A DNA stretch of 64,000 nucleotides from assembly GCA_033675265.1 (NCBI GenBank), contig JAUJYZ010000411.1, forward strand, positions 186,001 to 250,000, in the 5' to 3' direction. The DNA comes from Actinostola sp. cb2023. Taxonomy: Eukaryota; Cnidaria; Anthozoa; Actiniaria; Actinostolidae. Below the pieces are notes generated by a model. That model worked only from the letters and a program-made list of their open reading frames with translations. It had not been told where the DNA came from and did not search any database. A program made the position numbers and the translations under genes. Shown here piece by piece: positions 8,824 through 50,972 of this stretch. Position 1 is the first letter of the stretch. The number at the start of each line of letters is the position of its first letter.

Positions 8824-9159
8824 ATGGATAAAGTCCTACGTCCCGAACGCCTGGAAACGGATCCAAACAGCGTTGGAGCTTCGAAAGAATGGATCCACTG
8901 GAAGCGAACCTTCGAAAACTTCCTCTCAGTATTAAGCGACAAAGACGTCAACAAATTCGGTGTATTAATCAACTTTATCTCACCCTCGATCTTTCAATAC
9001 GTCGAAGAGTGTACGACCTATGAATATGCCATCGAAGTTCTGCAAAATATCTACGTGAAGCCACGGAATGAGATCTACGCTCGATACATACTCGCCACTC
9101 TCGACGACAGCAATCCAACGAGACTCTCGACGAGTATCTACAAGCTCTTAAGTCCTTGA
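8824..9159 (+). pseudogene. gag N-terminal part of gypsy element
   Basis: The ATG at 8824 starts a 111-codon frame. The start MDKVLRPERL and the segment EWIHWKRTFENFL are typical of invertebrate gypsy gag proteins, which form the particle shell. The frame runs off at about 9123, where a single missing base moves the reading to the next frame; after that the true continuation reads as a helical segment ending KSLSKDCNF. The break therefore lies in the capsid region, not at a usual programmed frameshift site, and no slippery heptamer is obvious. Confidence 0.8.
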
Positions 9160-10862
9160 GCAAAGACTGTAACTTCAAGTCTGTCACGGCTGTTAAATAC
9201 TGCGAGGAAGGTGTTAGAGATGCCTTCATTACGGGACTTCAATCGAACCAAATTCGACAAAGGTTACTGGAAAACAAGACACTTGACTTAAAAACAATGT
9301 TTGACCAGGCTCGTGCTCTAGAGTCTGCTATGCGTACTTCTGAATCCTACATGGCCCCTCAGCCCTCCTTCAACGCTGCAGTCCCTCCTACTCCACCTGA
9401 CCCGGTCCAACTTGACCACAACACCCTGGCCGCTGCTCAACATGAAGAACAAACATGTTTCTTCTGTGGTAACACCAAGCATCCTCGTTCTAAATGCCCA
9501 GCTCGTGATGCCACCTGTAACAAATGTCAAAAAAAAGGGCACTTTGCGAAAGCATGCCGTGGAAAGTCAAGCAAACCCAAAGAGGGATTTTCAGCTGCAA
9601 TCTGGTCCCCAACACTCGCCACCACAGGGACCCCAGAATCCCTCAAGAAGTCATCAGCTACGGTAGAAATTAACGCGGGATGGAAAGTCAAGGCTCTCTT
9701 CGACAGTGGAAGTAGTGAAAGTTTCATCCACCCTAGCCTGGTGGAAGCAGCAGCTATAACCATTCATCCGTCCTCCAGTACTGTCTCCATGGCGACGTCA
9801 GCATTTTCTACAAAAGTGACAGGGTGCTGCATTGTTGACCTCGCCTATCAAGGAAGGGTATACAAAGGTTTTCATCTGTCAGTACTACCAGGACTTTGTG
9901 CAGACCTTATCCTGGGACTCAATTTTCAGTCGCAGCACGAAAGTGTTACTTTCAATTATGGTGGTCCAAAACCATCCTTATCTATCTGTGGTCTATCTAT
10001 ACTGAACATGGATCCACCAGCACCGTTTGCAAACCTGACTGCAGATTGTCATCCTATCATCACTAAGTCAAGACGTTACAGTCAAGAAGATCTGGCCTTC
10101 ATCAATGGAGAAGTGGAGAGGCTACTCAAAGAAGGCATCATAGAGCCGAGTCAATCTCCATGGCGAGCTCAAGTTGTAGTGACTAAAGACGAAAACCACA
10201 AGAAACGACTGGCCATAGACTACTCCCAGACTATCAACCGATTTACACTACTAGATGCCTTCCCATTACCCAGAATCAATGACACTATCAACGACATTGC
10301 TCAGTACCGAGTCTTCAGCACCGTCGACCTGAAGAGCGCATACCACCAAGTGTCCCTCAAAGACGAAGACAGACCATATACCGCTTTCGAAGCTCGAAAT
10401 GGCCTCTTCCAGTTTACACGTCTTCCTTTTGGTGTGACTAATGGAGTGGCGTGCTTCCAAAGGGAGATGATGAAACTTGTGCAAGAAGAAGATCTTAAAG
10501 CGGTATTCCCTTACCTGGACAACATCACCATCTGTGGTAAAAACCAAGAAGACCATGACAAAAACCTGACATGTTTTCTTGAAGCCGCTAAACAAAAGAA
10601 CATAACATACAATGATGATAAGAGCATCTTTTCAACCCGGCGCCTTCCGATCCTGGGATATGTCATCGAAGAAGGAACCATCTGCCCGGATCCTGAACGG
10701 CTACGACCGCTGCGTGAGCTTCCTGTTCCACATGACACCAAGGCCCTCAATAGATGCCTGGGGTTATTCTCTTACTATTCACGATTTGGATCCCGGCATA
10801 CTCTGACCGCATCAAGCCAATCACCAGCGCAAAGTCATTCCCTTTACCTCAAGAGGCTGTAA
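9156..10862 (+). pseudogene. gag nucleocapsid, protease and reverse transcriptase
   Basis: One open frame of 568 codons. Two CCHC zinc knuckles: C101, C104, H109, C114, and C121, C124, H129, C134. The aspartic protease motif LFDSGSS is at about 181-187. Reverse transcriptase motifs follow: the first catalytic aspartate in STVDLKSAYHQ (D391), then RLPFGVTNG, then YLDN at 453-456. The usual motif is YxDD, so the second aspartate is replaced by N. I recall YLDN occurring in some invertebrate gypsy lineages, so this may be a lineage trait rather than damage. Homology ends near 10790, where a small indel shifts the frame into the RNase H-integrase part. The bases upstream of 9156 back to about 9123 also belong to this frame. 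Confidence 0.9.
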
Positions 10863-12397
10863 AGGCATTTCAAGGGATCAAGAAGATAATAGAGGAAGCA
10901 GTTGTTACAGCAATTGACGAGAATACACCATTTGAAGTGGAGACTGATGCCTCAGATGTAGCGTTGGCAGCTACTCTCAACCAAAAGGGAAGACCTGTTG
11001 CCTTCTTCTCAAGGACTCTGCAAGGGAGTGAGCTGAAACATGCGTCAATTGAGAAGGAAGCCCAGGCGATTGTCGAGGCATTGAGACACTGGAAACATTT
11101 CCTGACTGGAAGACATTTCACTCTTACGACTGACCAAAAGTCTGTATCCTACATGTTCGACCAGCGCCACAAAGGCAAAATCAAGAATGACAAGATTATG
11201 CGTTGGAGGATTGAGCTCTCTTGTTACAGTTTCGACATTGTATATCGACCGGGAAAGGACAATATCCCACCGGACACTCTATCACGCGCCACTTGTGCTG
11301 CAGCTACACAAGATTCCCTCTACAAGCTTCACCAGTCACTCTGCCATCCAGGCATAACAAGACTTTGGCATTTCATACGAGCCAAAAACCTCCCATATTC
11401 ACTTGAGGAAGTCAGGCAGATGACGAATTCGTGCCCTGTTTGTTGTGAGTGTAAACCTAAGTTCCACCATCCCGAGGAAACTCATCTCATCAAAGCTACT
11501 CAACCATTTGAAAGGATCAACATCGACTTCAAAGGCCCGTTGCCATCAACTAACAAGAACAGATACTTCCTCAATATAATTGATGAATTCTCCAGATTTC
11601 CATTTGTATTCCCATGTCCTGATGTTTCCACAACGACAGTAATCAAGTGTCTCACCACACTCTTCTCTCTCTTCGGGATGCCAGCGTACGTTCACTCAGA
11701 CCGAGGGGCGTCTTTCATGAGCCATGAGTTACGAGCCTTCCTCACTGAAAAAGGGGTTGCGATGAGCCGTACCACTAGCTACAATCCGGCTGGCAATGGT
11801 CAAGTTGAGAAGTATAATGGTACCATCTGGAAAGCGATTACAATGAGTCTTAAATCCAATAACCTTCCAATAGAGCATTGGCAGGATGTCCTCCCAGACG
11901 TGTTGCACTCAGTCCGTTCACTCTTATGCACCGCAACAAACGAGACACCTCACGAACGTTTCCTTGGGTTCTCACGTCGGTCTTCGGCTGGCAGTTCTGT
12001 TCCTACATGGCTAGCTACTCCTGGTCCGATCTATGTCAAGCGTAATGTCCGGAATAGCAAGACTGACCCTTTGGTGGACGAAGCTGAGTTGCTTCAAGCG
12101 AACCCCCACTATGCACATGTGCGCTACCCAGATGGTAGGGAGACTACTGTGTCTACCAAGAGCCTTGCTCCTAGAGGTCAATCAAAGGAACCACAAACTC
12201 TACCTCAGCCCAGAATGGAAGTACATCCCATTCCAGACTTGACAATATCTACTGAAGATCAAGCCCACAGTGAAGAACAAGCACCATGTAGTGACATCAC
12301 TGAAGAAGTATCTTTACAAGCACCAAGTGAACAATCCCCCATAACACTGCGACGCTCTCAGCGAGCTCGTCGCCCCGTTGATAAGCTTAATATTTAG
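10754..12397 (+). pseudogene. RNase H and integrase of gypsy element
   Basis: Frame of 547 codons; true homology begins at about residue 12 (WIPAYSDRIKPI). RNase H: D65 in EVETDASDVA, E101 and D127. Integrase: an HHCC zinc module (H193, H198, C227, C230) and a DDE core (D258 in INIDFKG, D316 in HSDRGAS, E352 in NGQVEKYNG). The C-terminus is basic and polar and the TAG lies one base before the polypurine tract. All catalytic residues checked are present. The junction with the reverse transcriptase frame near 10790 needs a one- or two-base indel to be read through. Confidence 0.9.
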
Positions 12398-21030: not shown

Positions 21031-21252
21031 ATGTCGATGATATTAATTATAATATTATTGAAGGTCGATACATTGAATACATTGATATCGAAATAAAAAC
21101 AAGCCATCATGTACACCTTGTAATACTTGTTTTGAAGAACCATTTCAATTGAATTGATGTATCTCCACACATAGCACATCTTAATATAATAATCATGTTT
21201 TAGTCCTGATGAGTATGATAGGGTCATGTAATTGTTACTCAGATGATCAAAC

Positions 21253-21347
21253 CAGACTCGTTCCCAGTCGCTTCTCTTACTCGGAATGTGGGCGCGCGGT
21301 GTTTAGTGGGAAGGGAGAAAGAAAAACGCAAAGCGACTGGCAGATAA
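21253..21347. repeat. Left terminus of 15-kb element
   Basis: Begins with the 18-bp TIR and ends with CGACTGGCAGATAA. The segment between is GC- and purine-rich. CAGTCGCTT near the tip and AAGCGACTGG inward can pair, giving a terminal hairpin of about 70 bp. Confidence 0.75.
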
Positions 21348-23261
21348 TCGAGATTTTCTTGCAAGTTTAGCCAAAATCTTGCAAGCATCCATATTTTAGC
21401 GTTTTATTTAATTTTTCCGATTCTTATGTATTATCTATCATTGATCGACTGTATTGGAAGTGTTCTGGGATGTTTACCTGTTTCGGCTGATTTTTTGGTC
21501 GTGAAATCTAAAATCCAAGATGGCGGAGGGCACAGAAGATTTGGACAAGTCATTCCATGAAATGACTTTGACGGGTTAGTACAAATGCTCCTGCCTTGAT
21601 TTGATCTTAAATTGTTAGTTGAATATATCATGATGTTCAAAAATTGAAGATTAAGTGCTGTTTGTCCATATTATAGATGAAGATCTGGTTCGTACAACAC
21701 CAAAGTCGAAGAGGTCGCTTTTCGCGAAGCATGACCTGACTCCCGATTCAAAGCAGCAGGGTTTGCCACAGTCTAAAGCCAGGAAAAGTGTAGAAGGTAA
21801 GCGCAAGATACTCTGTAAATATAGTACACGAATCTAAATTTGATTCGATCTCACTCGGTGTGAACAACAACAACAAAACAATCTGAGACTGAGAGGGATT
21901 GTAATTGCACTCGCACACTAATGATTACCATTACTATAAATATAACAACTTTATTGAATAAATAATACAATACGTAATATTTTTCCAAAAGGGTTATAAC
22001 AAAGAGGAACCTAAAAAATACTAACAATATTATTTATTCATTTACTTAATTCAGGAGAACACACCTTTTGTGGTAATCTTCAAGAAAGTTTAAAGGACAT
22101 ATGTGTTGAGGAAGAAGGGGGACTGGTTGAGCAAGAACAATTGATGGAAATACTTGAAATTTCTGTTGAAATGGGCTCAAAGAACAGGCTATCAAGAGCT
22201 CTAGCGACTGTTTTTCCTAATTGTGTGAAAAAGCGTGATATCAGGAATAACAAACAAATGTATCCTTTCCACAAATACAATTTACTAGTCAATTTATTAC
22301 AGTTTTAGTTAACTTAACTCAATCTCTGATTTATAAATGATTTGATTGAAACCTTAACATTTAACAAGCACAATATATACAAACATCAAACTGAAGCACC
22401 AGATTGAACTTGAAATAACCTTTGGCAACACAGTGGCCGACAATCTAAAAAGAGAAATCAAAAAGTTAGAAGAAACGATGTTAAGTGTCTGGGAGGATCT
22501 GCACATGGCATTGGAAGAAGAAGTGAGTATTTCATACATGTAGTTTCAAAATGGAAATGTAATGTGATGAGCTGTGATTAGTTTGGGGAGAAACATGGTG
22601 GACTGCTTGGAAAAACAATAGATGGGGCTGTAATCCACCTCCAAGGGATAAAACACTGAAAATGTATATTGTTTCAATTTCAGGATAAAAGAGCAGAGAA
22701 TCTATTGTTGAGATACAGGAAGATAAATGTTGCATGGGATAACTATGTATCTGCCCTGGTTAACATGTACGAGCAGGAGTTTGGCAAAGGTACGCCAGAG
22801 AGATGACACTGTGTCAGCTCAGCAGAAAAGGGCCTTAATCAAAGAAATGGATGTTGTAAAGGATAATTGCAATTTGGGTTATCGCACTGGGCAGCTTAAG
22901 TATGGTGAACAAGAAGTTACAACAAATGTATTTGCTAATTTGGCCACATCTATCACAAATGACTGTCCACTGATCAATGATATTCTGGAGACACTGATTG
23001 GTTCGAAGGAAAAGGATTCAAATAAGATAAAGACACATGACTTTAAGATGCGATGTGCTGGTCATGCACTTTCTGGGCTGGTGACATTAGCCAATCAAAA
23101 ATATGCTAATGACATTCAACTGTTTTTTGGCTTGTTGTGTATGTCATATGGAGCAGGAAAGCAGTTCATAAACATGCTGAATGCAATTGGTTTAAGTCTT
23201 CACTGGGATTCGCTGTGAGTATCTCGCTGTCTACTGAGAATTGTGCATACCGTTTTACCAG

Positions 23262-23425
23262 TATATTAAATAATAAGCAATTATTGGATGAGGTTGAGCA
23301 TGATATCGTAAATTCTCAAGACCGAGGTCTGTGTTATTTGCCGAAGCCGTAGGCTGAGGCAGATAACACAGACTCGAGAGGTCTTGAGAATTTACGATAT
23401 CATGCGAAAACCGAATTCAATAATA
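23262..23425. repeat. Foldback hairpin in intron
   Basis: Arms 23299-23337 and 23363-23404 (CATGATATCGTAAATTCTCA and complement) flank a loop with GCCGAAGCCGTAGGC. Weaker outer complementarity (ATAATAAGCAATTATT) extends it. A second, truncated copy lies at 27914-28005. Confidence 0.85.
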
Positions 23426-25084
23426 ATTGTTTTATTAAACATTTTGTGTAAGTGAGAACACAATTATAATCAGGTCAGTATGCTGCCATGGCCTGCATTG
23501 ACACTGCAAACCTACCGCTCTTTATGACATTGAATCCCGCCTTGAACGAACTTGAACGAACTTGAACTTATCTGTAGCAGATAATAGATTTATCCTGTCA
23601 AGTTCACAGGCTATCAATAATTAATTGCATGCTCTCAGCCAATCAGATGCGAGATTGTGAGTAAAATGTTTAATAATAGCAGTTATATACTATACATGTA
23701 CCACCATAAATATATTTCAGGTTTGTACAGGTAGAACTTTGCTGATATCACAGTTTATATTTTGACTACTCATCAGGCTGCATCAGAATATACAAAATGT
23801 ACTTCAAGATTGATGTGTTCAATTTATATTTTACTGTGTTTCAGGATGAAGCATCTAGATGAAAGACTTGATAATTTCCAGGGCATTATCAATACCAAGT
23901 TCCCTAAATCATCACCAGTCATAATACTGATGGACAACATCAACATGTACAAGGGGAGAAAACGACATTACAGACTATTCAAGACGTTAAGCCCGAAGAT
24001 GTGGAATTTCACAGGTAAATGACATACATGTGCACATCATACAATAGGATTATGGATCCTTCTTCTGGGAGTAACAATTGAACATAAATCATGCTTAAGA
24101 GTGATTGTCTGAGAAAACCAGGCAAAGTTGAAAGATGGGGGTCGGCCGATTAACCTTAAACTTATAGCATTTAATGTCTATCCGAAATGATTAAGAATGG
24201 TGGTATTTAGAGATTTCTCCGGTCTTTCGTTCCATAGTTAGACCACCCCCCCTTGTTTTGGCCTTTGCCGGCCCTGACGTCACACTAAATATATGGCAAG
24301 TTTGACGCTCGATAAAATACATTTCGCTTCATTTTTAGGTACCCATATTAATTCTTTATGTTGTTTGCCATCTATATTACATTCTTCAAGGCCAATATCC
24401 TGAATTTAAATAAACACGAATTTTTCATCGAATTTTGCAATTACCTTGCACGCGCCAAAATATCGTATGCTAATTTTGAGGCAATTTCGAAATGGCTTTT
24501 CTCAGAGGTGCGGCGGTTTATTTAAATCATTTGTTGATATATTGCAAGCCTGACATATTATTTGTCAAAATCAGAAAACTCCAATTTGAGCCGTTAAAAT
24601 CCGTTTGCGTGAGACACGCTCAAAGTTGCTATAATCTGGTATTTTTCCCGCCAAAATTGATGAGTTTTTTTTTATTCAACTGAATAACATTTCCCAACTC
24701 TCATAATATGTTGCGTAACGATAGCCTAAATCAATTCTACACATTATAACACTTCAGGACTACGATCTTATCTATTATTCATTTCATCGAAACTCAAATC
24801 AAACTACGATACGATGTCGAAAAATCAATTGCATTTTCCTGTGGAAATATTAGTCCTACACTGTACTAGGTCTTGATTTCGTTACTTACAAATATTTGAA
24901 CCTCCGTCAGCAATATCCAAAATCTACCAGTCTTCGAATATGCCGGAAAACTCAACTGAATGTTTGACTCTCTTATTTGAAACTATCGGCAAGTTTCTAT
25001 ACGAAATTAACCAATGTTTTGTCACGCATGCAAGGGAGCGTGTTGTTAGTAATTCAAAATAAATAGAGGTTATTTAGCGGATGG

Positions 25085-25174
25085 AAGGTCCTGATAGGGA
25101 AATACTGTCTCCATGGTCTTGAGCATACGTCCGTTTTCAAGGCCGAGGGCACAGTATTTCCCTATCTGGACCTT
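25085..25174. repeat. Hairpin with 24-bp arms
   Basis: AAGGTCCTGATAGGGAAATA at 25085 onward pairs with its complement ending at 25174, one mismatch seen; loop about 42 bp. Confidence 0.8.
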
Positions 25175-25518
25175 ATTTATTTTTGTCCTTTGTTATTTTT
25201 CACTAACTGTCACCCAGTGACTAGTCCTCAAAACGTCAACTGCACACAAAAAAAAAGAAAAGGAAAAAGCACACACAACAAACAAAACAAAAAAGGGAAA
25301 ACTGTTTTTCAATTTGTGTTGTTGAAGTGCTGCCCAGATACCAGGTCGATAGGCGTCGCCCTCACTGTTGATTACACCTGGACCGTGGTCAGATATAGAA
25401 AATTCTGCCCACTTCAACAACCCAGCTTATCTTCATGGACTAGATGACTAGTTGAGTCTTTGGCCGACTACAATCGGATGTTTTGGTGAAGTCATCTGCT
25501 GCATCGAGCGGCCAGGGA

Positions 25519-25667
25519 CAGGGGCGGATCCAGATATTTGGTAAGGAGGAGGTTGGACATTGGTTTCAACCAAATTGTATGTAAATATTTTTTTTGGCAA
25601 CAAAGGTATTCAAATTTCCAAAAGTAGGGTGTGCGCCTCCTTCGCCCCACCCTTAATCCGCCCCTGA
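25519..25667. mobile_element. Short hAT-like MITE
   Basis: 149 bp with ends CAGGGGCGGATCC and TAATCCGCCCCTG. The CAGGGGCG terminus is typical of hAT elements. The flanking 8-mers do not match, so no target duplication is claimed. Confidence 0.55.
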
Positions 25668-26487
25668 GGCAACCTCCGTAACAATGTCGTCGAGAAGAGC
25701 TGTCTGATCTGTTGTGGTGTCCTCCACTCATCTCTTCACAGTCACCATCAACGAATTTGTCATGGTTTTCAAAGACGTACTACTAGATGCTGGTTGAACG
25801 TCCTGGTTGCCGGCGTTACGCACTTCAGCATCTTGGCATTTACCAGTTTCACCCCAAAATACGATTGTAGTCAGCCATAGCCGGCATATGTCAACTTGTC
25901 CATGAAGATAAGCTAAGCTAAGCTACTAAAATGAAATGGAATGAAATATTTAACCTTAAAAATATATGTATATACACTTACAAACAGAGATTTTGAAATT
26001 CCTAGATATGATTTCTAATAACACTGTACAATATGGAAAACATTCTCTCAGGTCCTTTTTGCCGTACATATGGTCCAAATCAAGAAAGATAAGGAAAAAA
26101 ACAAGTTTAGAATATTTTAAGCGTCATGTACGCCATAACTGAGAAACTTGACAAGGCAGTGGAAACAATAATTGTAATAGCTGCCCTAATTAAAGATAGT
26201 GCTTCTGTCAATACTTTTTTTTAGTGCTAAAACTATGTATTCGATTGTTTGTTAATATTATTTATACATACAGTATATAAAGTCCAATATTTAGATTTTA
26301 TTTTAAGAAAACATTTAGCTTGACTACCATATGACTTATTTTCGTGTCAATCCTTAAATTGCCCCCATGGGCTTGTATTTGGGTGGAGGGGGATCTTCTT
26401 ATGGGAATTTTATTTTGATATAAATATTATTACGGAGACTTATTTTAGGAGGCTTAATATATATATATATATTATATATAATAAAAA

Positions 26488-26715
26488 TACAGCAATATGC
26501 AGAAATTAATATTATTCTGATCCATTTGACTAAAATACATATATATCAAAAACCTACTTTAGATTATGGGATGGCTATGCTGATATTTTTTTCTAGTTGT
26601 CTGCTAGCGAGGCTTTATGAAAATAATATCAGCGTAGCCATCCCATAATTTTAAGTAGATATTTGATATATGTGTATTTTAGTCAAAAGGATCAGAATTT
26701 CTGCATATTGCTGTA
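26488..26715. mobile_element. Foldback MITE
   Basis: TACAGCAATATGCAGAAAT and its complement bound a 228-bp hairpin with arms of about 90-100 bp containing GGGATGGCTA. It lies in the loop of the TTAA foldback. Confidence 0.8.
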
Positions 26716-27913
26716 ACAAACACGGTGGTTTAAATACATAAATTTTATCTTGCATGGCACTCATCCGTAAAATATTGTTTTCAACACTCAAAGTCAATAT
26801 TCATATCTTCGCGCCAGCCCACCATGTAATATCCTCTAGATACAAATGGTAAAATTGATATCTCCATTGTACTAACTGTTTTGTGATATCCTATTTTAAC
26901 TACCGCGATGAAAAAGTGTTACATTATTTATTATTTAATTAACAACACGCTCCCTTGCGTGACAAAACATTGGTTGATTTCGTATAGAAACTTGCCGATA
27001 GTTTCAAATAAGAGAGTCAAACATTTGAGTTTTCCATATTAGAAGACTGGTAGATTTTGGATATTGCCGACGGAGGTTCAAATATTTGTAATTCAAATAT
27101 TTGTAAGCAACGAAAACAAGACCTAGTTCACCTAGTACTAGTACAGTGTAGGGCTAATTTCGCGGGAAAATTCAGTTGATTTTTCGACATCGTATCGTAG
27201 TTTGATTTGAGTTTCGATGAAATGAATAATAGATAAGATCGTAGTCCTGAAGTGTATAATAATGTGTAGAATTGATTTAGGCTATCGTTACGCAACATAT
27301 TATGAGAGTTGGGAAATGTTATTCAGTTGAATAAAAAAAAACTCATCAATTTTGGCGGGAAAAATACCAGATTATAGCAACTTTGAGCGTGTCTCACGCA
27401 AACGGATTTTAACGGCTCAAATTGGAGTTTTCTGATTTTGACACATAATATGTCAGGCTTGCAATATATCAACAAATGATTTAAATAAACCGCCGCACCT
27501 CTGAGAAAAGCCATTTCGAAATTGCCTCAAAATTAGCATACGATATTTTGGCGCGTGCAAGGTAATTGCAAAATTCGATGAAAAATTCGTGTTTATTTAA
27601 ATTCAGGATATTGGCCTTGAAGAATGTAATTTAGATGGCAAACAACATAAAGAATTAATATGGGTACCTAAAAATGAAGCGAAATGTATTTTATCGAGCG
27701 TCAAACTTGCCATATATTTAGTGTGACGTCAGGGCCGGCGAAGGCCAAAACAAGGGGGGGGGTGGTCTAACTATGGAACGAAAGACCGGAGAAATCTCTA
27801 AATACCACCATTCTTAATCATTTCGGATAGACATTAAATGCTATAAGTTTAAGGTTAATCGGCCGACCCCCATCTTTCAACTTTGCCTGGTTTTCTCAGA
27901 CAATCACTCTTAA

Positions 27914-28005
27914 AACAATAAGCAATTATTGGACGAGGTTGAGCAAAATATCGTGATTTGTCAGTGGCGAGCAGATTAATTATTTGCCGATGCCGAAGGC
28001 AATGT
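27914..28005. repeat. Truncated copy of the 23262 hairpin
   Basis: ACAATAAGCAATTATTGGAC, GAGGTTGAGCAAAATATCGT and TTTGCCGATGCCGAAGGC match the left half of the hairpin at 23262. It begins beside the TTAA of the large foldback. Confidence 0.65.
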
Positions 28006-28320
28006 TTACTTCGTGTTGTTTTGCTCTTCCTTCAAAAAATGTTTTAATTACCTTTATAGGGCGAGGAGCAATTGTGCCAAATTTGGAGGGTATTGAACAC
28101 CTTCTTCAGTGCTCCAGTACTGCTGTGAATTCTCAAATTGACTTTGAAGACTTGGTGGCAGATAATATTCTCTTAGGTATTGATATACAGTATTTGTACT
28201 TATCTGGGTTTTTTTTTTGCCTGCCAAGAGTACAACACATGTACTTACTTACACTGGGTCCTCTGGTTTTCCTCCCTTCGTTATAAATGAACTGGTGAGG
28301 GATTGTATAGCATATTGAGT

Positions 28321-28433
28321 AAGAGATAAATACCGAGAACGGAGGCAATAAGCCATATAAATCCCGAGGGGCGTAGGCCCAAGGGATTTACAGGCTTATT
28401 GCCGACGTTCGAGGTACATTGTATTTATCTGAC
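28321..28433. repeat. Foldback hairpin with GGCGTAGGCC loop
   Basis: Left arm 28321-28365 and right arm 28383-28433 pair imperfectly (GGCAATAAGCC, ATAAATCCC) around a loop of about 17 bases. In the intron before the long exon. Confidence 0.75.
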
Positions 28434-28555
28434 TTAGTTTAAATTTGACAAGGTTTTTGCACAAAGCAATCTGAGGCATTTTCTGGTATTTTTTGGAGTG
28501 TTATTTAGCATGAATACTAATGAATAGCATGAAGAATAGCATTTCAGTGCTCAAT

Positions 28556-28642
28556 ATGAATTCACCGGGATGTACATGTATCCATATACAACCCAGGGCC
28601 AGTGACCCAGGGCTGTATATGGATACATCCCGGTGAATTCAT
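28556..28642. repeat. Hairpin with ATGAATTCACCGGGATG arms
   Basis: Arms 28556-28594 and 28610-28642 are near-perfect complements around CCAGGGCCAGTGACC. Confidence 0.85.
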
Positions 28643-31404
28643 AATGAGTAATTCAATTCTATTCTATTGTTCAACCAGTCAATACCGGAGATAAAGCCCT
28701 ATAAATAACAAAGAAAACCGTGTCAAATGTAAACTAAATGTAGTTAAAGAGTGCAAGTGAGTGTTTCATAGTGTCCCCAGTTAGTTTTGAAAGCTACATG
28801 TAAATGCATTGACAGTTATATGTCAAATCATGATTATTTTATTAAACATATAGTGAATGTTTTTTTTCTTCATTATTGCAGATGAGATGGATGATCACAA
28901 ACAGCTATGGTCAAGATTTTCAGATGCGTACAGTTTAAAGCTACTTAAATATGCACTAAATCATGTTCCTCCCCATCCACAGCCATTCAAAGAAATGAAT
29001 GAAACTGAATTCAATGCATGGTTAGCAGTCTTGGATTTTGTAGAATTTGAAAAACTGTCCAAAGAGTTTAAAATAACAGAGCCACCATTGTCATCAGTGT
29101 TTTCTATGAGAAATCAAGTGAAAAGAACAGACACGTTGATATTACCCTTATCATTAGAAGACAACGCCACTCTACCTGGAACGGCATCCATTATGGAAGA
29201 GTTTGGGCAAGAGTTTGGTATTCCTTGCAACCATACAGTTAAGTTGCTGGAATTTGATGAGAAGAACCACTCATTCGATTTGAAGGGTGCAAGGATCCAC
29301 TTCGAATTTCTGAAGATTATGCATCTGCACCGAGATGAGATGGCTCTACTTGAAGAGCAGATGCTCGATGCATCAAAACAGCTAGAGCATTCAAATGTAC
29401 ATGTAAATGATGAGAACAGTGATGACGAAGATGAAGATGCATGCAATGAAGAAGATGAAGACTCAGGTACAGCAGGAAGTTCTGCCACCCATATAAAGTC
29501 AAAGTACTTCCAGAAGCAGGATGGCCTGTTCAAGAAATCTTGCAACAAGCTAGAAAGATGGATTTGGGATGCCGTCCATTCAACAAGCTCTGAAACAGCA
29601 CTAGATAATGTGATCAGCCAACTTACTAAAGACAGGTTGTGGGAAACTAAAACAGACCACTTCAACAGGACAGCCATACACTATGCCATTGAATGTCAGA
29701 ATCATACCATGGTTAGAGTACTGCTTGCTGCTGGTGTAAACCCAAACGTCAAAGAAGGCTGTGGTGTAACTCCTCTTCATCTTGCAGTGCTAGGAAAAAG
29801 TACAGAGATGTGCAAAATTTTGGTTGATGGTTTTGCATTAATTGATGGCCTCTCATTTTCATCACTACCTAGTCCGTATGAAATGGCAAAGGCTTTGGAC
29901 TTGAAGGATATTGTTACTTTGTTTGATGTGACATTGAGAGAACAATAAGTGATGGATGAGAAACTGTCACATCTAGCGAGTAAAGGTGAAGAGCAAAGAG
30001 ACATTGAAGAAGTACAAAGTGCAAGCTTGGATGAACGCAATGATGAATTCATCTGTGAGAGATCACAGTTCTGTGGATTTCCTACAGCTGTAGTTGGTGA
30101 CCAAGGTACTTGCAAGAACAACCGAAGTGTCAAGCAGAAGGACCAGTCTGCCTTTGGATGGATTGCTGAAATCCCTGGTGATTTACATGCCAAAGGCCAT
30201 TTGTGTGAAGCAGCATTCAAAGCTCAAGGAAAAGGAGGCTTCCATCATTTGATTACAAAAGTTCTGAATCGAAAAAAAATAGCCGAAGAAGCTTTCCGTA
30301 AGAAGAAATTTCAAGAACAGAATCTAGCACACATCAAGGAAGCTGTAAGAGATGTATCAATAGCATATGGTATGGCTGCTGTGGAAGTGTTCAAAATGTC
30401 TGAATATTTCCCAAGCAAAGAGTCTCTAAAGAAGTGCCTTTTAAAACATGGAAACCACAATCAAATACTGCTAGATTCCTTTAAGCTGTTCTTAAAGGAA
30501 TGCTCCATTGATGCCAATTTTGCATACCATGCAGAGATGTTCACCCTATTTGGCCCTATCCTACAGTTATATAATGATGCTACAAGCTTTGGGAATGGAT
30601 TAGCCAGAGAGGCTGTATGGGTAAAGCTGCTTCCAATATTTGCTCAACTACGATTCAAGAACTATTGGACAGAGGCCCTTGTCCATGTAGTCAACTTTGC
30701 AGCAGTTTGGCCCTTGGCATTCCGAGAAATGATGAAAAATAATTCAACAGTGAATTTGTCTGGCAAAGATGGAACTGATGTGGACCTGGATGAATTTGTG
30801 GAGAGTTATATTGTTCGTCCTCTGAAACAATATTCATCTGGTAAGTGTATTCAAAACATATGCTTTACTTGCGTTAGACTATGATAACTTTATCATTATG
30901 AAAATAGCAAATAGGAGTTAATTATATACAATATAAATATACAAATAAACTATTATTATTATTAAAATAAACTATTCTTATTCTTATTTCTGCTTTTCAG
31001 GTCATTCTTCTGTCAAGACCTGCCAACGTATCATGGCTAATGTGCAGTTCATTGGAAATGTACGTCGTTTATATGCAGACAAGGAGGCTTTTGATGTACA
31101 TCCCCAGCTCAAGCACACAGAACAGAGTGCCTTTCCAGACCAAATTAAGGGAATGTGGTTTAGTCTTAGGGAATGAATGTTTGAATTTGTTAAGGAGAGG
31201 GAGGTTGCCCTTTCAGTACATATTGACCATGCTGACCAGGACCCAAAGCCTGTGTCCAAAGCTCTTGTATCGGTTTATGAAAAGGGGTTAACAAAAGTTA
31301 AGGATAATTTTTATAGGAAATTACATAAATGCTTCCCATCAATGCGAATGGTCACTTTCAACAGGATAGTTGAAACCAGAGAAGAGGATGAAGAAATGGT
31401 GTAA

Positions 31405-32159
31405 GTGATGCAACATGTTAGATAACTTTATTGGGGTTATTAGATCACGTTTACGGCAAATGTCAGATTGACTTTTGAGTTTCACTTTAAAAACGTCAAA
31501 TAAACGGGAATAACTTCCACATGAATACAAATGTACTTAATATGTTTTTAAGAATGAAAACATGACGTTGTTTACGTCTAAAGGATGGAATAACGCAGCA
31601 AAACCATGATCATGTGTACAGTTTTGATGTTTGCCATTCGCCGTAAACGTGATGCTTAATCTAGGAGTGGTAAATGGCTCATCAAACATCAAAAGTGAGC
31701 TCAAAATATTGATTTTGCTAACTATCCACATAGCCTCAATCTTTCAAAATGGCTCCTAGGCTGTTGTAGGTCTTCTTTAAAACCAAGGTATTGATGTCTC
31801 ATTTGCCATTCACCATTAATGTTGTTCAGAATCCACTGTCCTCTAAGATAATAGTAAATGTTATACTTTGAATTTTAGCTGCTAAAGTTGCACACACTGT
31901 ACAAGTTAAAGAATATTGATCTCATTGATTTTTCCAACAGAGTAAGGGAATGGGATATATTTAAAAAACTTTGATCAACTGTATACCGAGTATCTAAAGT
32001 TTAAACAATTTACTTCATTTGAAATTCACCGGTATAGATGAATCTACACAATATTAATATTTATTTTATCAAGCATTCTACACTTGGAATGCATCTCAAA
32101 ATGGTTCCAGTCTGTTACTCAATTGAGAAATCATGGATGTCCCATTTTTCACTTAGATT
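31405..32159. other. Region between convergent genes, with an inverted repeat
   Basis: No gene. ATCACGTTTACGGCAAATG at about 31444 pairs imperfectly with its complement at about 31632-31652, suggesting a small MITE. The two 3' ends meet here; no clear shared terminator or polyadenylation site was identified. Confidence 0.5.
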
Positions 32160-35100
32160 TCATGAGCCATTCTTAACAAGATATGCTTTCTCTGTTAGTG
32201 TCAATAATGGTGCAGTGGTGTTTTCTGTGTGATCCCTCAAGTTTTCTTCAAAGTATCCATTGACAATTAGCAACTGAAATAATCGGATAGCATGACCTTC
32301 AGATTTTAACTTGGCCTTTCCAAGACCATATTGTGGTACAAGATGGAAGTTTTTGTTTAATACATCTTTTTTACTCTTTGATCCCTTTAAGGTGAATGCT
32401 GCTTGCTTCATAGTTACTCTAGCTTGAGTACTCATAGATAACAAACAGTCAAATGCTTGAATGCTTAAGTCAGTATAATCTTTAGGCACTGTCTGTTGTG
32501 GGTTCTGGCAGTTATCGCATGTAATGCCACATGGCTGAGTCATGTCAGTGGTCTCATCAAAATATGACAGCATGAAAGCTCGGCAGCAATGATTTAGCAT
32601 GCAGTATTTCACAATACTATCCAACATATCCTTCTGAAGACGTTTATGATTTAGGTCTTCTGTTCTGCTAATAGAGTTGAGGATTTTAGATCTGTCCTCA
32701 AACCTGTACAAAAGAATACATGTGGATGGTAATCCATCTCGGCCTGCTCGACCTGCTTCTTGAAAATAGTCCTCCATAGATTCAGGAATGGTATGATGAA
32801 TAACAAACCTAACATCCTTCTTATCAATGCCCATTCCAAAGGCTTTTGTGGCACACATCACAAGTGCTTTGCCATCTAACCAGGCACGCGAGTTATGTTC
32901 TTTTTCCATATCGTCAAGTGCTCCATCGTAGTGAACGGCACTGATTCCTTTGACTTTCAATAGGTATGCCATATCCTTTGTATCTCTACGTGTGCTGCAG
33001 TACACAATACCACATTTATTTGTAAAGTCTTCTGTAATTAATTTGACTATGTCATCCTTGGATTTCTGATCAATTTTTGGAATAACCCTAAAAAAGAGAT
33101 TGTTTCTTTCTGATGGCAATTTGACAATAGTTGTTGATGTCATTTGTAATCTCTCTATGATTACCCTCTGAGTTCTTGATGTAGCAGTACCTGTGAATGC
33201 ATGATATGGCTTGTTGAATGCACGTAAGCAGCTAAGTTGTGCATAAGCTGGTCTGAAGCTTGATCCCCATGTGTCCACACAGTGTGCTTCATCAACTATG
33301 ATCCTTCCAAAAACACCTGCTTTATTCATTTCTTGGAAGTGTCTCATCATTCGTTCTGAGACGGCTGCTTCTGGAGCTAAATAAAACAATTTGTAACATG
33401 TATCTTTTTGTGATAGTTCATGAAGGACAGACTCCTTTTCCTCATCGGACATGCTGAACCTTATGTAGCAGGCATTAATTCCTTTCGATCTTAACTTGCT
33501 GACCTGATCACTTAATAATGCCAACAACGGGGTTATAACAATTGTAATACCAGGCATTATCAATGCTGGGATAGCATAACAGATGGTCTTTCCAGATCCT
33601 GTAGGCAACAAGATTAAAGAATCTTGACCGTCAGTGATAGATTTTATGGCTTCCCTTTGCATGGGTCTAAATTCATCAAGGCCAAATACATTTCGTAAAG
33701 CATACAATGGCATATCTTCTGAATCGCCCAATTGAACTTGGAGGCCTTCACTAGGAATGGTGATTTCTTGTAAAGGAGTTGTAGTGTCAGGAACATACTT
33801 CTATTACAGACAAGAAAAACAAAATACAAAACAAGGTTTTATCTTACATTTACTGTCTACCTCAAACCAATCTTACTCCAGATTTCAATCAATATCCCAA
33901 AAAGTATTTTGGGGGGTTGAAAAATCTAGATTAAGATTGTTTCAAAGAAATATGACCCATGTATAATTTATTATCAAACTACCTGGGAGTAAAGGGAGTA
34001 CAGAAGTCAAAATGAATGGGCGACTTGCACTAAGAGGTCACATGACTCCATCCCCTTAAATCGAACAGCAGTGTCAAAATGAACTCGAGAAATGAAAAGA
34101 GCAGCTTGAAATTAGTGAAAGGGCAACAAATATTTTTGCATTGGATGACAAGAGCTTGCATTTTTCTATATGAATCCTAATAAAATTTGTGATTTTATTT
34201 TTAATGTCTTTTCTCCTGTGTCAGACATTATGCGCTGAAACTTTACCCTTTTACTAATTTCGAGCAGCTCTCTTCATTTCTGGAGTTTATACTGCTATTC
34301 GATTTAAGGGGGATGGGGTCAGTTGCTTATTTGATGATGATTAGCCACTGGATTAGCCACTCTGTTCTTGTTTTATGGTAAAAATCCCTTCAATTATTAA
34401 TTCATTATATTAGAAAATTAGAAGAGATTGGTTTCATTAACCCGTGAAACAAAATCTAATAGTCAATGTGTAATACATGCAGTTAAATAGAAAAAAAAGA
34501 AGAAGAAAAACAATTGAATTAAGGTATACTGATTTCAATCGCTCTATAAATATAAATAATAGGACAAGTTTAACTTACTTGTTATTGCAGTCATCCATCA
34601 AAAGCATGTAGCAAAGTTAACTAACAAACAGTAGTATTACTGAAGAGTTTGTCCATATTATTATTATTGTCCTGTGAGTGAATACATGGTAAATAATAAT
34701 TATTATTGAATGTAAGACATCAACTCCCACTGAATAACTCCAAGGTTTTCTTGTTTGTTAGTTAGATAGAGTTGTAATGTTGTGCTTCTTATAGACCATT
34801 TTAATTAATCCCACAATGCATGATTTTCTGCGCTTGACGTCAAATTTATTATTTTGAATTCCATTCATTTTCCTTCATTGTTTTCAGTCTTTGTATATTT
34901 TGAATATAATTCCAAAGAATAAGTTTGACGTCAAGTGCGGAAAATCATGCATTATGGGATTTATTAAAAGGGTGTTATATAGCACATTTTACAACGTGGT
35001 TAATATAAAGTGTTAGTTATGTAAATGGTGGTCAACAGGATTTGCTCTATAATATTATTATAAAATACTAAAAGATTATTGATCTTTTGTGACCCCCTCT

Positions 35101-36061
35101 GGGCTAGTATTACTATTATAATAGTATCTGATTAAACCTGAAGTGCACAATACCTAAAGTTATATGTATACTTGTTTGGGAGTTGAACCCAAGCTTCTTG
35201 ATAAAAATAAATTTACCAAGTGTGCTCCACATACACTAACAAGAATTGACTTACTGGTAATGTGCACTCTGCTTAACAGCAGAGTGCAAACCATATGTCC
35301 GTGAAACAGAATAGCATTAATCAAACAATAATAGAAAACAATAGAGATAACACTATTTAGTACTGTTTCACGGACATCTGAGTTGCACTCTATACTCATT
35401 GATTCTAATGTTAGTATCAGTTTATCATTTGCATACATACCACTTTCACATAAAAAGATTCCACAATAATATCAACTTTACCACTTGATTTCATGTGAAA
35501 CCACGTATTGAATTTCACATTAACAGACAAGGAGTGCACAGTGATTACTTGAGAGGCACTTCCTTTCTCATATGGAGATAGACATCCTTTATGGTAGAGA
35601 TATACACCAAGCTGTTTGGCGGCTTCTTGTGCACTGTTGCAATTAATTGTGAGGGAAAACCCTTTGTGTTCTACTTTGAATTCATGATCACTCGTCTGGG
35701 AAAATATGAAAAATTGACAAAAAGTTATGTGTTTTGAATTCCTACGACTTCTGCAATTAACACAGCACGTACGAATAACATGAAATACCTTTGATTTATA
35801 TTCATCAGAGAGCCTTTTCAAACACAGAAGAGTTTCTTCGGAATGCTTCTCCAACAATATGGCTTTCGCCTTGCTAATATCGATTTGACAGATAGGTACT
35901 TTGTGAATTGTCCTGTAATGGTGGTCAATTCCATCGAGAGAATAACTGCTCAGGCTCTCACTGCATTTGTCATGAGGACAGGGGAGGTTTTTAGCTAAAA
36001 ATGCACGATGAAACGGTCTTTCTTTGTCTACTAAATTTTTGGCGCTAAAACGCGCCGCCAT
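32160..36061 (-). CDS. RecQ-family DNA helicase
   Basis: Three exons: 36061-35789, 35695-35441 and 33800-32160, all with GT-AG sites in phase 0; 722 residues, no internal stop. The start is the ATG in CAAGATGGCGGCG. The N-terminus has a C2H2-like pattern (CPHDKC and HHYRTIH) and a second domain on exon 2. The RecQ core follows: motif 0 FRPMQREAI, Walker A LLPTGSGKT (about 240-248), DEAH (346-349), motif III FTGTAT, motif VI QEAGRAGRDG (about 523-532). After it come the RecQ zinc-binding cysteines (about 582-607, CGITCDNC) and a winged-helix-like RQC region. RecQ helicases unwind DNA 3' to 5'. In this context it may help transposon DNA processing, which is inference. Its start codon lies only 11 bases from the right terminal segment, so the terminus probably carries the promoter. 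Confidence 0.88.
34047..34318. mobile_element. MITE in helicase intron (a)
   Basis: CCATCCCCTTAAATCGAACA onward (34047-34125) matches the reverse complement of about 34245-34318 with some mismatches. Confidence 0.7.
34795..34972. mobile_element. MITE in helicase intron (b)
   Basis: Arms of about 50 bp containing AATGCATGATTTTC and CTTGACGTCAAA, in inverted orientation. Confidence 0.75.
35281..35391. repeat. Hairpin in helicase intron (c)
   Basis: Arms AGAGTGCAAACCATATGTCC onward (35281-35309) and complement at 35363-35391, with a few mismatches and a 53-bp loop. Confidence 0.75.
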
Positions 36062-36071
36062 CTTGAATTTG

Positions 36072-36232
36072 TTATCTGCCAGTCGTTACTTTTTCTCCCT
36101 CCTTCCCGTGCGCCTTTGCGCCCCTCCTTCCCAAGCGCCTTAGCGCGCTTTCCGGTTACTTTCCTTTCCGTTGATCTTTCCGGTCCGGTTACATTCCCTT
36201 TCCACGGTAAGTAACGACTGGGAACGAGTCTG
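36072..36232. repeat. Right terminus of 15-kb element
   Basis: Ends with the 18-bp TIR (36215-36232); its inner edge carries TTATCTGCCAGTCG, the inverse of the motif at the left end. The interior holds repeated CCTTCCC and AAGCGCCTTAGCGCGCTTTC-like GC-rich runs. The helicase start codon is immediately inside. Confidence 0.75.
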
Positions 36233-36772
36233 TGATCAAACCATGACATGCAAACATTGCAAGATAACCACCTTGTCAACAACGTGCAACCAGAAACTTG
36301 TCTGTCAAATGATGGTGAAATGAAAAACTGGCAAATTGCAAAATTACACATACTTTAATGATGCTATCCAAAGGTGTTTTTTTTTTTATAGCTAGCATCA
36401 TTACTGATGTTAATGATATCGCACTTGACGATTTACAAAAGCTCATACTTCAAGCTGGTACGAAACATATGATTGTTGATAATTTATGTTTTAGTCATCA
36501 CAAACAACAAAGTTAGAGTTCAGTTAGAGTTATATGGTGTGATAAACATTTTATATTTACATTACAGTACATATTGAAAAATTATACAGTCGTCCTATTA
36601 ATTTCAATTTAGTCAGAATGTATGCCTAGGTGAACTCGTTATGGTGAGTAAGTTTTATTTGAATCGGGTAATTATTTTAGGAGAACGGTGCCGATATTCG
36701 ATTTTCAGTATCACTTCCGGTTTTGAGAGGTGAAGGTACTTGAAAATATATTCGAAAAAGTCGTCTAAATGT

Positions 36773-37879: not shown

Positions 37880-39659
37880 AAATGGCGACTATACGTTGTA
37901 ATAACGAAGATATCAATACCACATTTATCGCTAAGGGGTCTTCAATTGAAACACAAGTAGAAGCAAGTTCTAGTTTTGAAACTGCCGTGAAAATGGGCCA
38001 TGTATTATATGATTTGAAGCTTTTAAAACCTTCAACTCTTGTCGAAGTCACAGACAACAAAGAAGCAAAATATTTCTATGATGTGTCATAAGGATCTAAA
38101 CCATCCTGCAGGATTACAGTACAGCTAAATATAGTTATTTTGAAGAACTTTCCAGTCGATGGAATGCAAAATGCAAATCCCGCGCAGACTCCTGACAGAG
38201 ATGTTGAAAACCGCTCGACTAACACAACGCCAACGGCCGATACAACGGATACAACTATGGACGGAGAGGGCGACGAAGAGACAAACGAGTTGGTAACCAC
38301 TTCAACAGGATACTATTTTATCTACTATGAATGGTCGAAGCGTTTTGACCATCACTGGTTGCTTTCTTCAAAGCCACCATTAGTGCTTTGTTCGATAAAA
38401 TCTCTAATAGATATTTCTTCTCCATCGGTGTTCTGATTTGGGCATCAATGATTGTAAATTTACGGGTGATCTTTCCCAGGATGATAAAGAGGAACAGCTG
38501 AACGTCTTGCCTGAGCATAAAATCATATTTTGTACTCCCGAGGTACTCGAAGAAGGAGCACTGCGAAAGAAAATGGAGGAGCTGGAGCTGGAGCGTATTG
38601 TTTCGCCCAGTTTACAAAGCAGTATGCAGTGAACTTGCCAAGCTTCAATGCCCTAAACTTCTTTTAAGTGCAACTATACCACTGATAATGGAGAACAGTT
38701 TGAGAGGAGCTCTTTGGGGATTTTGATGTATATAGAAACTCTATTTTCAGAGATAATTTAACATTAGAAGTAGTAGAACGTAGCTCAAAAGTCTATAATG
38801 AATTGGCATCATTTATTGGAGAAAGACCTGGACAGTGTGGTGTCGTTTATTGTGTTCTGCCTTATGATGTTGCAAAGATCCATGCTGAACTACTAAAAAG
38901 AGACATCAGTGTGGTAAAATACCATGGTCAATTATCAGAGCATGTCAAGGCCTCTAGTCAATTCAAGTGGTTGTCTGGAGAGGTGCAGGTGATCGTTGCA
39001 AATTCCTCATTTGGAATGGTTATCGACAAACCTCATGTGAGATTCATCCTTCACGCACGACTACCTACAAGTGTAGATGAATATTACCAGCAGTAATGAT
39101 TACCAGTAGATGAATATTTCCAGCCACATGTCGATTGTTCTATAGCTTTTCCGACAAGTCAACCCTGTATAAACTCTTTGGCAAACAAGACGTCGAGTTT
39201 GGTTCACAGTTCGCTCAAGTCAATGATTTAATTTACATATTGGAGAATCCTGTCAAGTGTAGACATGCTGAGATAATGGCGTATTTTGGAGATGTACGTG
39301 AGAGCTTTTCCTGTCAGACTGGTTGTGGCAATTGTAAAAACCGTGGTCATTACCAGATTACAGATGGCACCTCTGATGGACTGAAAGGTGTTCAGGCCAT
39401 TGTAGAGCTAACCGGAAAGTTATTCCTTGCTGGGAGCAGGCAGAAATCCATCATTGCATCTGGACTGGATGCTTATACTAATTTTGGTGTCTTTTCCAAA
39501 AGGAATTTATTTTTGCATTTGCTTATCAACAACAACATCTTAGCTGAAAATATTCAGAAGAAGGGTAAAGGTTTTGCTATTTATTTCACATTGGGTGCTA
39601 AGGCTCATGATTTGCTAGGACTTAATACTAGTGTTATTAAGTATGATAAGGTAAAATAA
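37880..39659 (+). pseudogene. Second RecQ-like helicase, decayed
   Basis: A start-like AAAATGGCG at 37879-37885 opens a frame whose product (KGSSIETQVEASSSFETA, then VLYDLKLL) loosely resembles the exon-2 domain of the helicase at 32160-36061. Helicase pieces then appear in several frames: a VLCSIKSLID motif (about 38390), IIFCTPEVLEEGAL (about 38525), a SAT-type motif (LLLSATIP, near 38665), and a long RecA2 part (38725-39094) ending DEYYQQ. The AGRAGRDG arginine-finger motif that should follow is absent, replaced by stops. A zinc-type CQTGCGNC and an RQC-like tail run to 39659. At least three frame breaks: not functional as a helicase. Confidence 0.75.
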
Positions 39660-41237: not shown

Positions 41238-41910
41238 TAGTCTGAACACACTAACTAATGTCAAATTGCCTTTCCAATGTGTAAGATAAACAATAAAGTC
41301 TGTTGTTTTTAATAATAAACCTTTGAATGTCTCAAGTCATAAACAAATACACATTTATATTGCTGTATGACTTCCAATCTCTCCCCACAATTTAGGCTTT
41401 TATGCAGGTAACTCTATATAAAAGGAGAGACATTAATGATATACATATTTAAAAGTAACTAGTTACAGGGCTCACAATAATTATGGAGCAATCAATATGT
41501 TATGCTAGAGGATCCTGGTTGGTCATTTATGAGAGGTGGTTGCTTACGAGAGTGGTCGCAACCAGAGGTTCATCTGTATCATGTCAAACATAACAATAAA
41601 TAAGCTAATAACTTGTTATTGCATATCATTAGGGAATTTCCTTTGCAAGAAATATTGGAATTCCTTTTCTGCTTTCTTGTCACCTTTAGCTAAAGCATTA
41701 ACATACCTTTCAGCAATCTTGTTCTCAAAAGAACTACAACCTTGCCTCAAGCTCCCTTCTCTTTTCATCTTCCATTTCCCTCCCCATTCTTCTTCCTTCA
41801 TTTCCACTTCCATCACCCACCATCACATCCGCCCTATCTCTTTCCTTCATGACCCTCTCCCCTACTTTTACCTTTCAAATTAACATTTCATTAGTTTTTC
41901 TTTTTTTATT

Positions 41911-46269: not shown

Positions 46270-47945
46270 ATGGCGTATGAGAATGAGCAAGAAGTTAGAG
46301 ATATATTTGGAGATTCAGATTGGATGGAAACGATTCCCACATTGATTTTGAAGGATTTCCGCTGGTAGAGAGAGAAGAAGGATTACAAGAAGAACGTCTC
46401 GAAAGTGAGGACGAGAGCGAAGAAAACAGCGGCAGCGAGGGGGAAGAGGACGAAGAAGAATGGACGTTTGAACTCTCTAATTTTCATATTAGTGAGTTTT
46501 CTGGTCAGCCAGGGCTCCTTATAGGCTTCGGGGATGAGCCTAAAGCTGACCACTTTTTTCTGAGAGTATTTGGGGAGGCTACTTTAGACCGTATAGTTGA
46601 AGAAACAAACCGCTATGCTCTTCAATCGGTGGCAAACAATCCTCGCCGTTCAGCGATTTGGAAAGACGTGACGAAGCCCGAGATGAAGTCCTACTTTGGC
46701 ATTTGTGTCATTATGGGGGTGAATGTTCTACCTAAAGTCGCTGATTATTGGAAGGATGATCCTTTCTTGGGAAACGAGGGGATAAAGCGAGTCATGACAA
46801 GAAACCGATATCAAGAAATCTCTCAGTTTTTGCACTTCGCCGACTCCACACTCACTCCAGCACGTGGCGATGTAGGCTACGATCGCCTTTATAAAGTTCG
46901 GCCAATACTGAATGCCGTTTTGGAGAACATTCAGATGTGTTATTATCCAAGCAAAAACATTGCTGTGGATGAAGGAATAATTGCCTTCAAGGGGAGACTT
47001 GGCTTTCGGCGATATATGCCGGCTAAGCCGACAAAATACGGCATCAAAGTTTGGATGGCCGCCGACTCATCAAACGGCTATGTTCTAAACTTTGATGTCT
47101 ATCTTGGCAGCGAAGAAGGAAAACAACGAATCCATGGTCTTGGCTACGATGTAGTAATGAACATGGTAAAACCATTCATGAACAAGAACCATCATGTTTA
47201 TTTAGACAACTGTTTTTCCAGCCCAAAGCTGTTAAAACACTTAACACTGCAAGACACATATGCATGTTCAACAGTACGCAGCAACAGGAATGGTTTGCCG
47301 CCATGCGCTACAAATAAGCTCACTCGACCAGGAGAGCTTATACAAGTCCAGAAAGGCAACATGCTATTTACTAAATGGCATGATAAAAGGGATGTTGCCT
47401 TTCTGTCCACAAATGTTTCGCCAGGAGAGGCCTCCCGTGCAATTGAGCGGCGCGTTCGCGGACAAAACATTGAGATCTTGAAACCCCGAGTTTCTGATGT
47501 TTACACGGCCAACATGGGTGGTGTAGATCGAGCAGACCAACTTCGCTCCTATTATTATGTAGGCAGGCAGTCCAGAAAGTGGTACAAATATCTGTTTTGG
47601 TACGCGTTTAATCTGTCTGTTTGTAATGCCCATATTTTGGAGTCTGTACAGCGCCGAAACAAGCGTCCTCAAGATGAGTTTAGGATTGAATTGGGCAAGC
47701 GTCTTATCGGGGATTTCAACTCCAGAAAGCGCCCAGCAAACACTACATCTCCTTCACCGTTACAGCCCTCTGGACCCCACAATATCACTCCTATCGTGGG
47801 CCGAAAGAAACAGTGTGTTTATTGCAAGACAGCAGGCAGGAAAACCCCCAAAGGCTATCCCGTAGAAAGCAAAACAAAATGCGCCCAGTGCGATGTCGCG
47901 CTATGCAAAGATGTATGCTTCCGTGACTACCACACCAGCAACTGA
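46270..47945 (+). CDS. piggyBac transposase (DDE_Tnp_1_7)
   Basis: A 541-codon frame (46320-47945) with an acidic N-terminus, the piggyBac core, and a C-terminal cysteine-rich zinc domain (C499, C502, C521, C524, C529, C533). The catalytic aspartates are visible: D217 in IAVDEGIIAFKGR, D296 in VYLDNCFSS and D403 in MGGVDRADQ. These cut and rejoin DNA at TTAA. The natural start is probably the ATG at 46270 (MAYENEQEVRDIFGDSD), which is in another frame; one base appears to be missing near 46319. So the protein is intact except for a one-base break near its N-terminus, or is translated from a downstream start. I could not find matching TTAA-flanked inverted ends around it, so the element limits are unknown, and domestication cannot be excluded. 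Confidence 0.9.
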
Positions 47946-50810: not shown

Positions 50811-50972
50811 ACATTAAAACATGTTCTAATTAGTTGTCCAAAACATGTTTGAAAGCCAGTTTGATCAGACAGTTCCGCACTGAGGATGTCGTGAAATTTA
50901 CAAACGTCGTAGATTTAAGGCTTTCAAACATACATGCATGTTTGGGCAACTAATTAGAACATGTTTTAATGT
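50811..50972. mobile_element. MITE with ACATTAAAACATG arms
   Basis: 162 bp; arms of about 30 bp (ACATTAAAACATGTTCTAAT and complement). Confidence 0.8.

Follow-up and report, generated by a model that had tools for sequence, protein, structure and literature searches.

What kind of unit places a RecQ helicase gene and a large gene of no familiar family face to face between two perfect inverted repeats in a sea anemone genome? The question is raised by a 15-kb element in a 64-kb window (the whole stretch of DNA analyzed, 64,000 nucleotides, in whose positions the coordinates below are given) from Actinostola sp. cb2023 (Cnidaria, Actiniaria). We consider it likely that this element is a no longer autonomous, chimeric copy of a DNA transposon of the AcademH kind with terminal inverted repeats (TIRs). 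Its limits were set by the TIRs and by the target-site duplications (TSDs) outside them, and its main structural features are the following:

21244..21252, no strand: left 9-bp TSD TGATCAAAC, exact sequence match
21253..21270, plus strand: left 18-bp TIR CAGACTCGTTCCCAGTCG, transposase end, exact sequence match
21334..21347, plus strand: subterminal CGACTGGCAGATAA, transposase end, an inverted echo of the inner half of the TIR (CCAGTCG)
24099..27909, no strand: nested insert with long inverted arms, TTAA at 24095-24098 and 27910-27913, outside the original unit
31386..32086, no strand: putative lineage-switch stretch, at which DNA identity to the other copies with 18-bp ends changes
36072..36085, minus strand: matching subterminal CGACTGGCAGATAA, helicase end, read from the sequence
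36215..36232, minus strand: right 18-bp TIR (reverse complement of CAGACTCGTTCCCAGTCG), helicase end, exact sequence match
36233..36241, no strand: right 9-bp TSD TGATCAAAC, exact sequence match

In the window, CAGACTCGTTCCCAGTCG was present once on each strand, at 21253 (plus) and, in reverse complement, at 36215, and TGATCAAAC directly abutted the outer edge of both TIRs; by chance, a pair of inverted 18-bp repeats flanked by a 9-bp direct repeat is expected about 5e-7 times anywhere in 64 kb. A further TGATCAAAC at 50859, on the opposite strand, is unrelated to the element. The two genes start near opposite ends and converge, the plus-strand pieces running from about 21520 to 31173 and the minus-strand gene starting at 36061. 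The nested insert, which makes up 3.8 kb of the 15 kb, came later than the element itself, and the original element of about 11.2 kb falls inside the 10.6-12.2 kb range of the other copies. The inverted arms of the insert (24095-27913) are about 0.9 kb long, and no long conserved reading frame was noticed in it.

Searching the Actinostola genome with the ankyrin-repeat exon of the transposase gene (described below) yielded four more copies with both genes, in all of which the genes face each other:

C304:23252-33852: copy C304, TSD GGTGAAAAG, perfect 9 bp, TIR 18/18 bp
C522:71512-82120: copy C522, TSD GGTGAAAAG, same flanks as C304, TIR 18/18 bp
C1178:102802-115040: copy C1178, TSD ACACTGTGG, perfect 9 bp, TIR 18/18 bp
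C7:266363-278288: copy C7, TSD TCAGTTTAG, perfect 9 bp, diverged ends and diverged RecQ

Copies C304 and C522 have identical flanks, being either alleles or a duplication, and were counted once, which leaves three further independent insertions. Together with the window copy, 4/4 insertions with both genes had a perfect 9-bp TSD, and RecQ was carried by C304, C522, C1178 and, in diverged form, C7. Two other sites were not counted as insertions: an end in C482, for which neither a partner end (≤4 mismatches allowed) nor, within 20 kb, a coding match was found, and a region of C506, a decayed and diverged relative with a single end-like site. The element has thus inserted repeatedly with 9-bp duplications, and several copies pair both genes. 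The preliminary description of this stretch had taken perfect 18-bp inverted termini, a 9-bp direct repeat and two convergent genes from opposite ends as the marks of one inserted mobile unit. The termini and the repeat proved exact at 21244-21270 and 36215-36241, the genes were recovered as plus-strand exon pieces (21520-31173) and minus-strand exons (36061 to 32160), and the three independent insertions, with ends, both genes and 9-bp duplications of their own, bear the single-unit reading out. Second copies with different 9-bp flanks, which that description had named as a check, were found, and the contrary outcome of no second copy did not occur.

The left 300 bp of the element matched at least 45 places in the genome, counting that of the window, and for the most part the match covered only the outer 60-90 bases; the count is a lower bound, because 40/157 candidates were scored. 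Twenty-six of the 45 matches were read as a sample of short copies (outside it were the window's own, C482, six in an array in C871 and 11 others). Both ends could be paired in 21/26 of these short non-autonomous derivatives, with lengths of 154-224 bp; no end pair was found in L006, L057, L061, L063 and L068, and pairings in L007 and L071 had been dropped before the count as spurious, since they rested on a 5-mismatch site. The TSD was an exact 9 bp in 11 of the 21 paired copies and had one mismatch in another 6; one flank is largely common to L058 and L073, which may represent a single insertion that was duplicated. The sample was picked by the window's left end and therefore has a window-type left end by construction, and the second end matched helicase-end sequence in 21/21 (the match spanning no more than 27-30 bases in L065 and L067). 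At C871:74778-75429, six left-end matches form a tandem row with a spacing of about 115 bp, which looks like a short derivative turned into a satellite array.

The minus-strand gene comprises two exons in the window:

32160..33800, minus strand: RecQ helicase exon, open, 546 amino acids, with Pfam DEAD, Helicase_C, RecQ_Zn_bind and RQC
35417..36061, minus strand: first helicase exon, ATG at 36061, frame open to 35417 with a donor site inside, 214 amino acids

Motifs GSGKT, DEAH and GRAGRDG were all present in the RecQ exon, whose best solved relative was human BLM (309 bits), whereas the first exon (214 amino acids) had no Pfam family at E 0.1. By its domains and motifs, the gene is a BLM-like RecQ helicase gene. 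Comparison of the RecQ exon between the window and C304 gave a nonsynonymous divergence (dN) of 0.022 against a synonymous divergence (dS) of 0.128, which indicates that the helicase was under purifying selection between lineages while these moved. Just to the right of the element (38411-39656, plus strand), a second RecQ gene has left remnants that are 34% identical to the first over 117 amino acids (38748-39092) and have a RecQ_Zn_bind match at 39114-39656; facing it, a piece at 41613-41724 on the minus strand resembles the C-terminus of a second, diverged DUF6589 family. Together, the two pieces probably represent a further, decayed element of this kind.

The plus-strand gene was assembled from the following parts:

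21520..23215, plus strand: 5' exons, ATG at 21520, junctions from the sequence and from the deposited model P0011 (QZH41_016246)
21520-21574, 21677-21796, 22055-22260, 22370-22522, 22681-22791 and 22792-23215, plus strand: approximate 5' pieces, the last by homology
23846..24016, plus strand: exon with the first conserved aspartate (LMDNIN), codon 23933-23935
28056..28175, plus strand: transposase exon (RGAIVPNLEGIEHLLQ...)
28881..30842, plus strand: large exon with ankyrin repeats, second aspartate and DUF6589
about 29649-29828, plus strand: ankyrin repeats in the large exon
30099-30101, plus strand: codon of the second conserved aspartate (VVGDQGT) in the large exon
30573-30812, plus strand: best DUF6589 stretch in the large exon
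30609-30611 and 30672-30674, plus strand: codons of the conserved glutamates in REAVW and NYWTE in the large exon
30997..31173, plus strand: C-terminal exon, with a change of frame after it

Model P0011, a deposited protein of Actinostola sp. cb2023, matched the window in six stretches at 97-100% identity, in one at 88% and in two short ones, spanning splice joints, at 56-63%. The gene is broken in the window by an in-frame stop (29946-29948) and by frame changes near 22790 and near 31173. In Pfam, its exons matched Ank_5 and, after it, DUF6589, each with 54 bits. Relatives were found among other cnidarians (Nematostella and Paramuricea), on many contigs and, with 37% identity across the region searched, in amphioxus (P0097). 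In an alignment of 36 relatives, counting rows with a letter at the position, the aspartate of GD[QVNG] was conserved in 33/33, the aspartate and the histidine of PGDxH in 33/33 each, the glutamate of REx in 31/31 and that of NYxxE in 29/30; the first aspartate was found in 4/7 lettered rows, with P0086, P0087 and P0099 showing stranded start-of-protein letters. In the structural model of P0093, aspartate 387 was located in a strand and aspartate 841 just past one, with the ankyrin domain in between; confidence was moderate at both (block predicted local distance difference test scores, pLDDT, of 67 and 77), and with moderate confidence the order of the aspartates is that of an RNase H core. 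We consider that this gene most likely encodes a DDE-type transposase, a DUF6589 protein whose two conserved aspartates enclose the ankyrin repeats.

Most of the weaker matches of the ankyrin-exon search (L017-L038 of the Actinostola genome) belong to a second, diverged family with DUF6589 and ankyrin repeats, with open exons of 551-715 amino acids in the 6 read. This family keeps GD[QV], GDFH and NYRDE in 6/6 long frames, the residue preceding GDFH being variable, and has QDN at the first-aspartate site in 2/2 copies read. A C304-type transposase fragment, P0006, is deposited as a protein of a Gammaproteobacteria metagenome-assembled genome; it was near-identical to the anemone copies in a tree and is likely animal DNA binned with bacteria.

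The two halves of the window copy relate differently to the other copies. Against C304, C522 and C1178, the transposase exons were saturated at synonymous sites (proportion of synonymous differences, pS, 0.73-0.77), and dS was 0.13 in the RecQ exon and 0.27-0.29 in the first helicase exon. Synonymous divergence between C304 and C1178 was 0.01-0.02 in all five segments, and between the window and C7 both halves were saturated. DNA identity to the other copies with 18-bp ends was 67-83% (coding pieces) to the left of 31386-32086 and 90-97% (RecQ exon) to the right of it; this stretch falls between the two gene ends, and nothing inside it was alignable at the thresholds used. The termini repeated the pattern, with 73% identity over the outer 0.17 kb on the left and 88-89% over the outer 0.8 kb on the right. 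A tree of 32 DUF6589 rows placed the window transposase and the C304 group on separate supported branches of one supported ten-row group, the inner order of which it does not settle. The window copy thus looks chimeric, its helicase half (gene and right end) having come from, or been exchanged with, the C304/C1178 lineage and its transposase half from another. An assembly misjoin was rejected as the cause, given the identical TSD at both outer ends. Of the likely routes, gene conversion in place and template switching in the course of gap repair, we would favor the latter.

Several observations weigh against this account of a chimeric, mobile AcademH-kind element. The helicase half is itself uneven, its non-coding stretches 33968-34256 and 34451-34783 being only 73-80% identical to the other copies, so there may have been more than one exchange; and the identical TSDs fit a chimera formed before insertion as well as conversion in place. 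The young pair C304/C1178 shows a helicase without selection (RecQ dN 0.020 and dS 0.021; first exon 0.021 and 0.022), with a frame change in the RecQ of C304 and a RecQ in pieces in C1178 (it is unbroken in C522); a lack of selection in this pair fits decaying copies, as expected. The transposase frame is broken alike in the window, C304/C522 and C1178, and 4/21 paired short copies had no recognizable TSD. The fold search gave no RNase H match, the full-length model returning only ankyrin proteins among the matches listed and the DUF6589 piece model nothing significant, and no solved transposase was matched. Lastly, the defining feature of AcademH is kinship of the transposase, and the filing made here, by TSDs, helicase and TIRs, is a probable one.

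Three other explanations were considered. If the similarity of the helicase halves came from selection being stronger or mutation slower, with no exchange, the RecQ dN/dS of about 0.17 against C304 and the uneven helicase half, with its two divergent non-coding stretches, would find a place; however, the contrast sits at synonymous sites (saturated versus 0.13) and also at the termini (88-89% at the helicase end versus 73% at the transposase end), the pair C304/C1178 has no such contrast, and both halves are saturated against C7. We therefore regard this explanation as very improbable and retain the chimera. As to class, the element was filed by published descriptions as a probable new member of AcademH, with which it shares 9-bp TSDs, a RecQ helicase beside the transposase, and TIRs. 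A new superfamily, in which a transposase of DUF6589 and ankyrin repeats unrelated to Academ would share RecQ and 9-bp TSDs with it by convergence, appears unlikely to us. The title of Kojima 2020 (Mob DNA 11:15) names animals and fungi as the hosts of AcademH, which counts against convergence. Kapitonov et al. are credited with the report of a RecQ helicase in Academ (PMC3627910), and AcademH, a DNA transposon lineage with a helicase, has TSDs of 9 or 10 bp (PMC10045372). AcademX, of the same superfamily, has 3 or 4 bp and a nuclease in place of the helicase, and the author relates the difference in TSDs to helicase versus nuclease (PMC10045372). Because RecQ in Academ (PMC3627910) and 9-10 bp TSDs in AcademH (PMC10045372) were already in print, the undescribed superfamily suggested in the preliminary description was dropped, and the element is probably not a new superfamily; the accompanying remark that Academ elements with helicases have shorter duplications fits AcademX (3 or 4 bp) and not AcademH (PMC10045372).

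Convergence would agree with the listing of DUF6589 in Pfam as a domain of unknown function, with the acquisition of RecQ by Kolobok as well (PMC9587614), and with a literature search in which the available text gave no mention of DUF6589 and no title on an ankyrin-bearing Academ-like anemone element. The ankyrin repeats and the separate, facing helicase gene are features of the Actinostola element, AcademH being compared by description only; no description of the ankyrin insert or of the chimerism was found in the available text of the literature searched, which had the key AcademH paper, Kojima 2020, outside it. Kolobok target duplications are TTAA, whereas the copies of the element have varied 9-bp TSDs, and its TTAA-flanked piece is the separate nested insert. 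A KolobokH-like element (Kolobok transposase with RecQ) is hence scarcely credible here: KolobokH is a DDD/E transposon that encodes RecQ, and one red-algal Kolobok has RecQ on the complementary strand, like the element in the window, but KolobokH is reported from fungi only (PMC9587614). Kyakuja, Dileera and Zisupton (KDZ) elements are likewise large DNA transposons with accessory genes, but the TSDs of Zisupton and the described Dileera family are 8 bp and those of Kyakuja 7 bp (PMC12730594), versus varied TSDs of 9 bp here; no KDZ family was among the Pfam matches of the window and relative transposase proteins. The 9-bp TSD is common to Mutator-like elements (MULEs) and the Actinostola element, and no MULE/MuDR Pfam family was found in five window transposase pieces or in the relatives P0093, P0097 and P0085, although a distant match could escape.

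Elsewhere in the window, an open 548-amino-acid piggyBac-type transposase (DDE_Tnp_1_7, zf-Tnp_2) is located at 46299-47942, a retroelement with protease and reverse transcriptase at 9072-12397 (an integrase in a second, overlapping frame was seen by eye only), and an open reading frame that matches an integrase core (rva_4, rve) at 1754-2635 on the minus strand.

As for mechanism, we infer catalysis, fold and helicase role, as well as movement by cut-and-paste over copying. The DDE-type transposase would bind both the 18-bp ends and the inverted CCAGTCG motif in the subterminal region, excise the element and reinsert it at a 9-bp staggered cut, and the RecQ helicase would open DNA at the transposon ends or during donor-gap repair. 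The subterminal CGACTGGCAGATAA is a candidate second transposase-binding site, and a near-identical copy of this motif was present at the same (transposase) end of C304.

The proposal that we hold in even balance is that elements of this lineage consist of two exchangeable modules, a transposase with the left end and a RecQ with the right end, and that the RecQ half was swapped between transposase lineages that are themselves saturated. The mixed pairing would then have been mobile, because short derivatives picked by the left end carry a helicase-type right end in 21/21, RecQ would be a general-purpose, lineage-independent factor, and the DUF6589 transposase with an ankyrin domain in its catalytic core would be an undescribed branch. 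For DUF6589, a Pfam family of unknown function, a role becomes probable, that of transposase in DNA transposons that carry RecQ. The chimera would be evidence from nature for transposase and helicase as separable parts, and the role of the helicase in such transposons may therefore be testable with mixed pairs.

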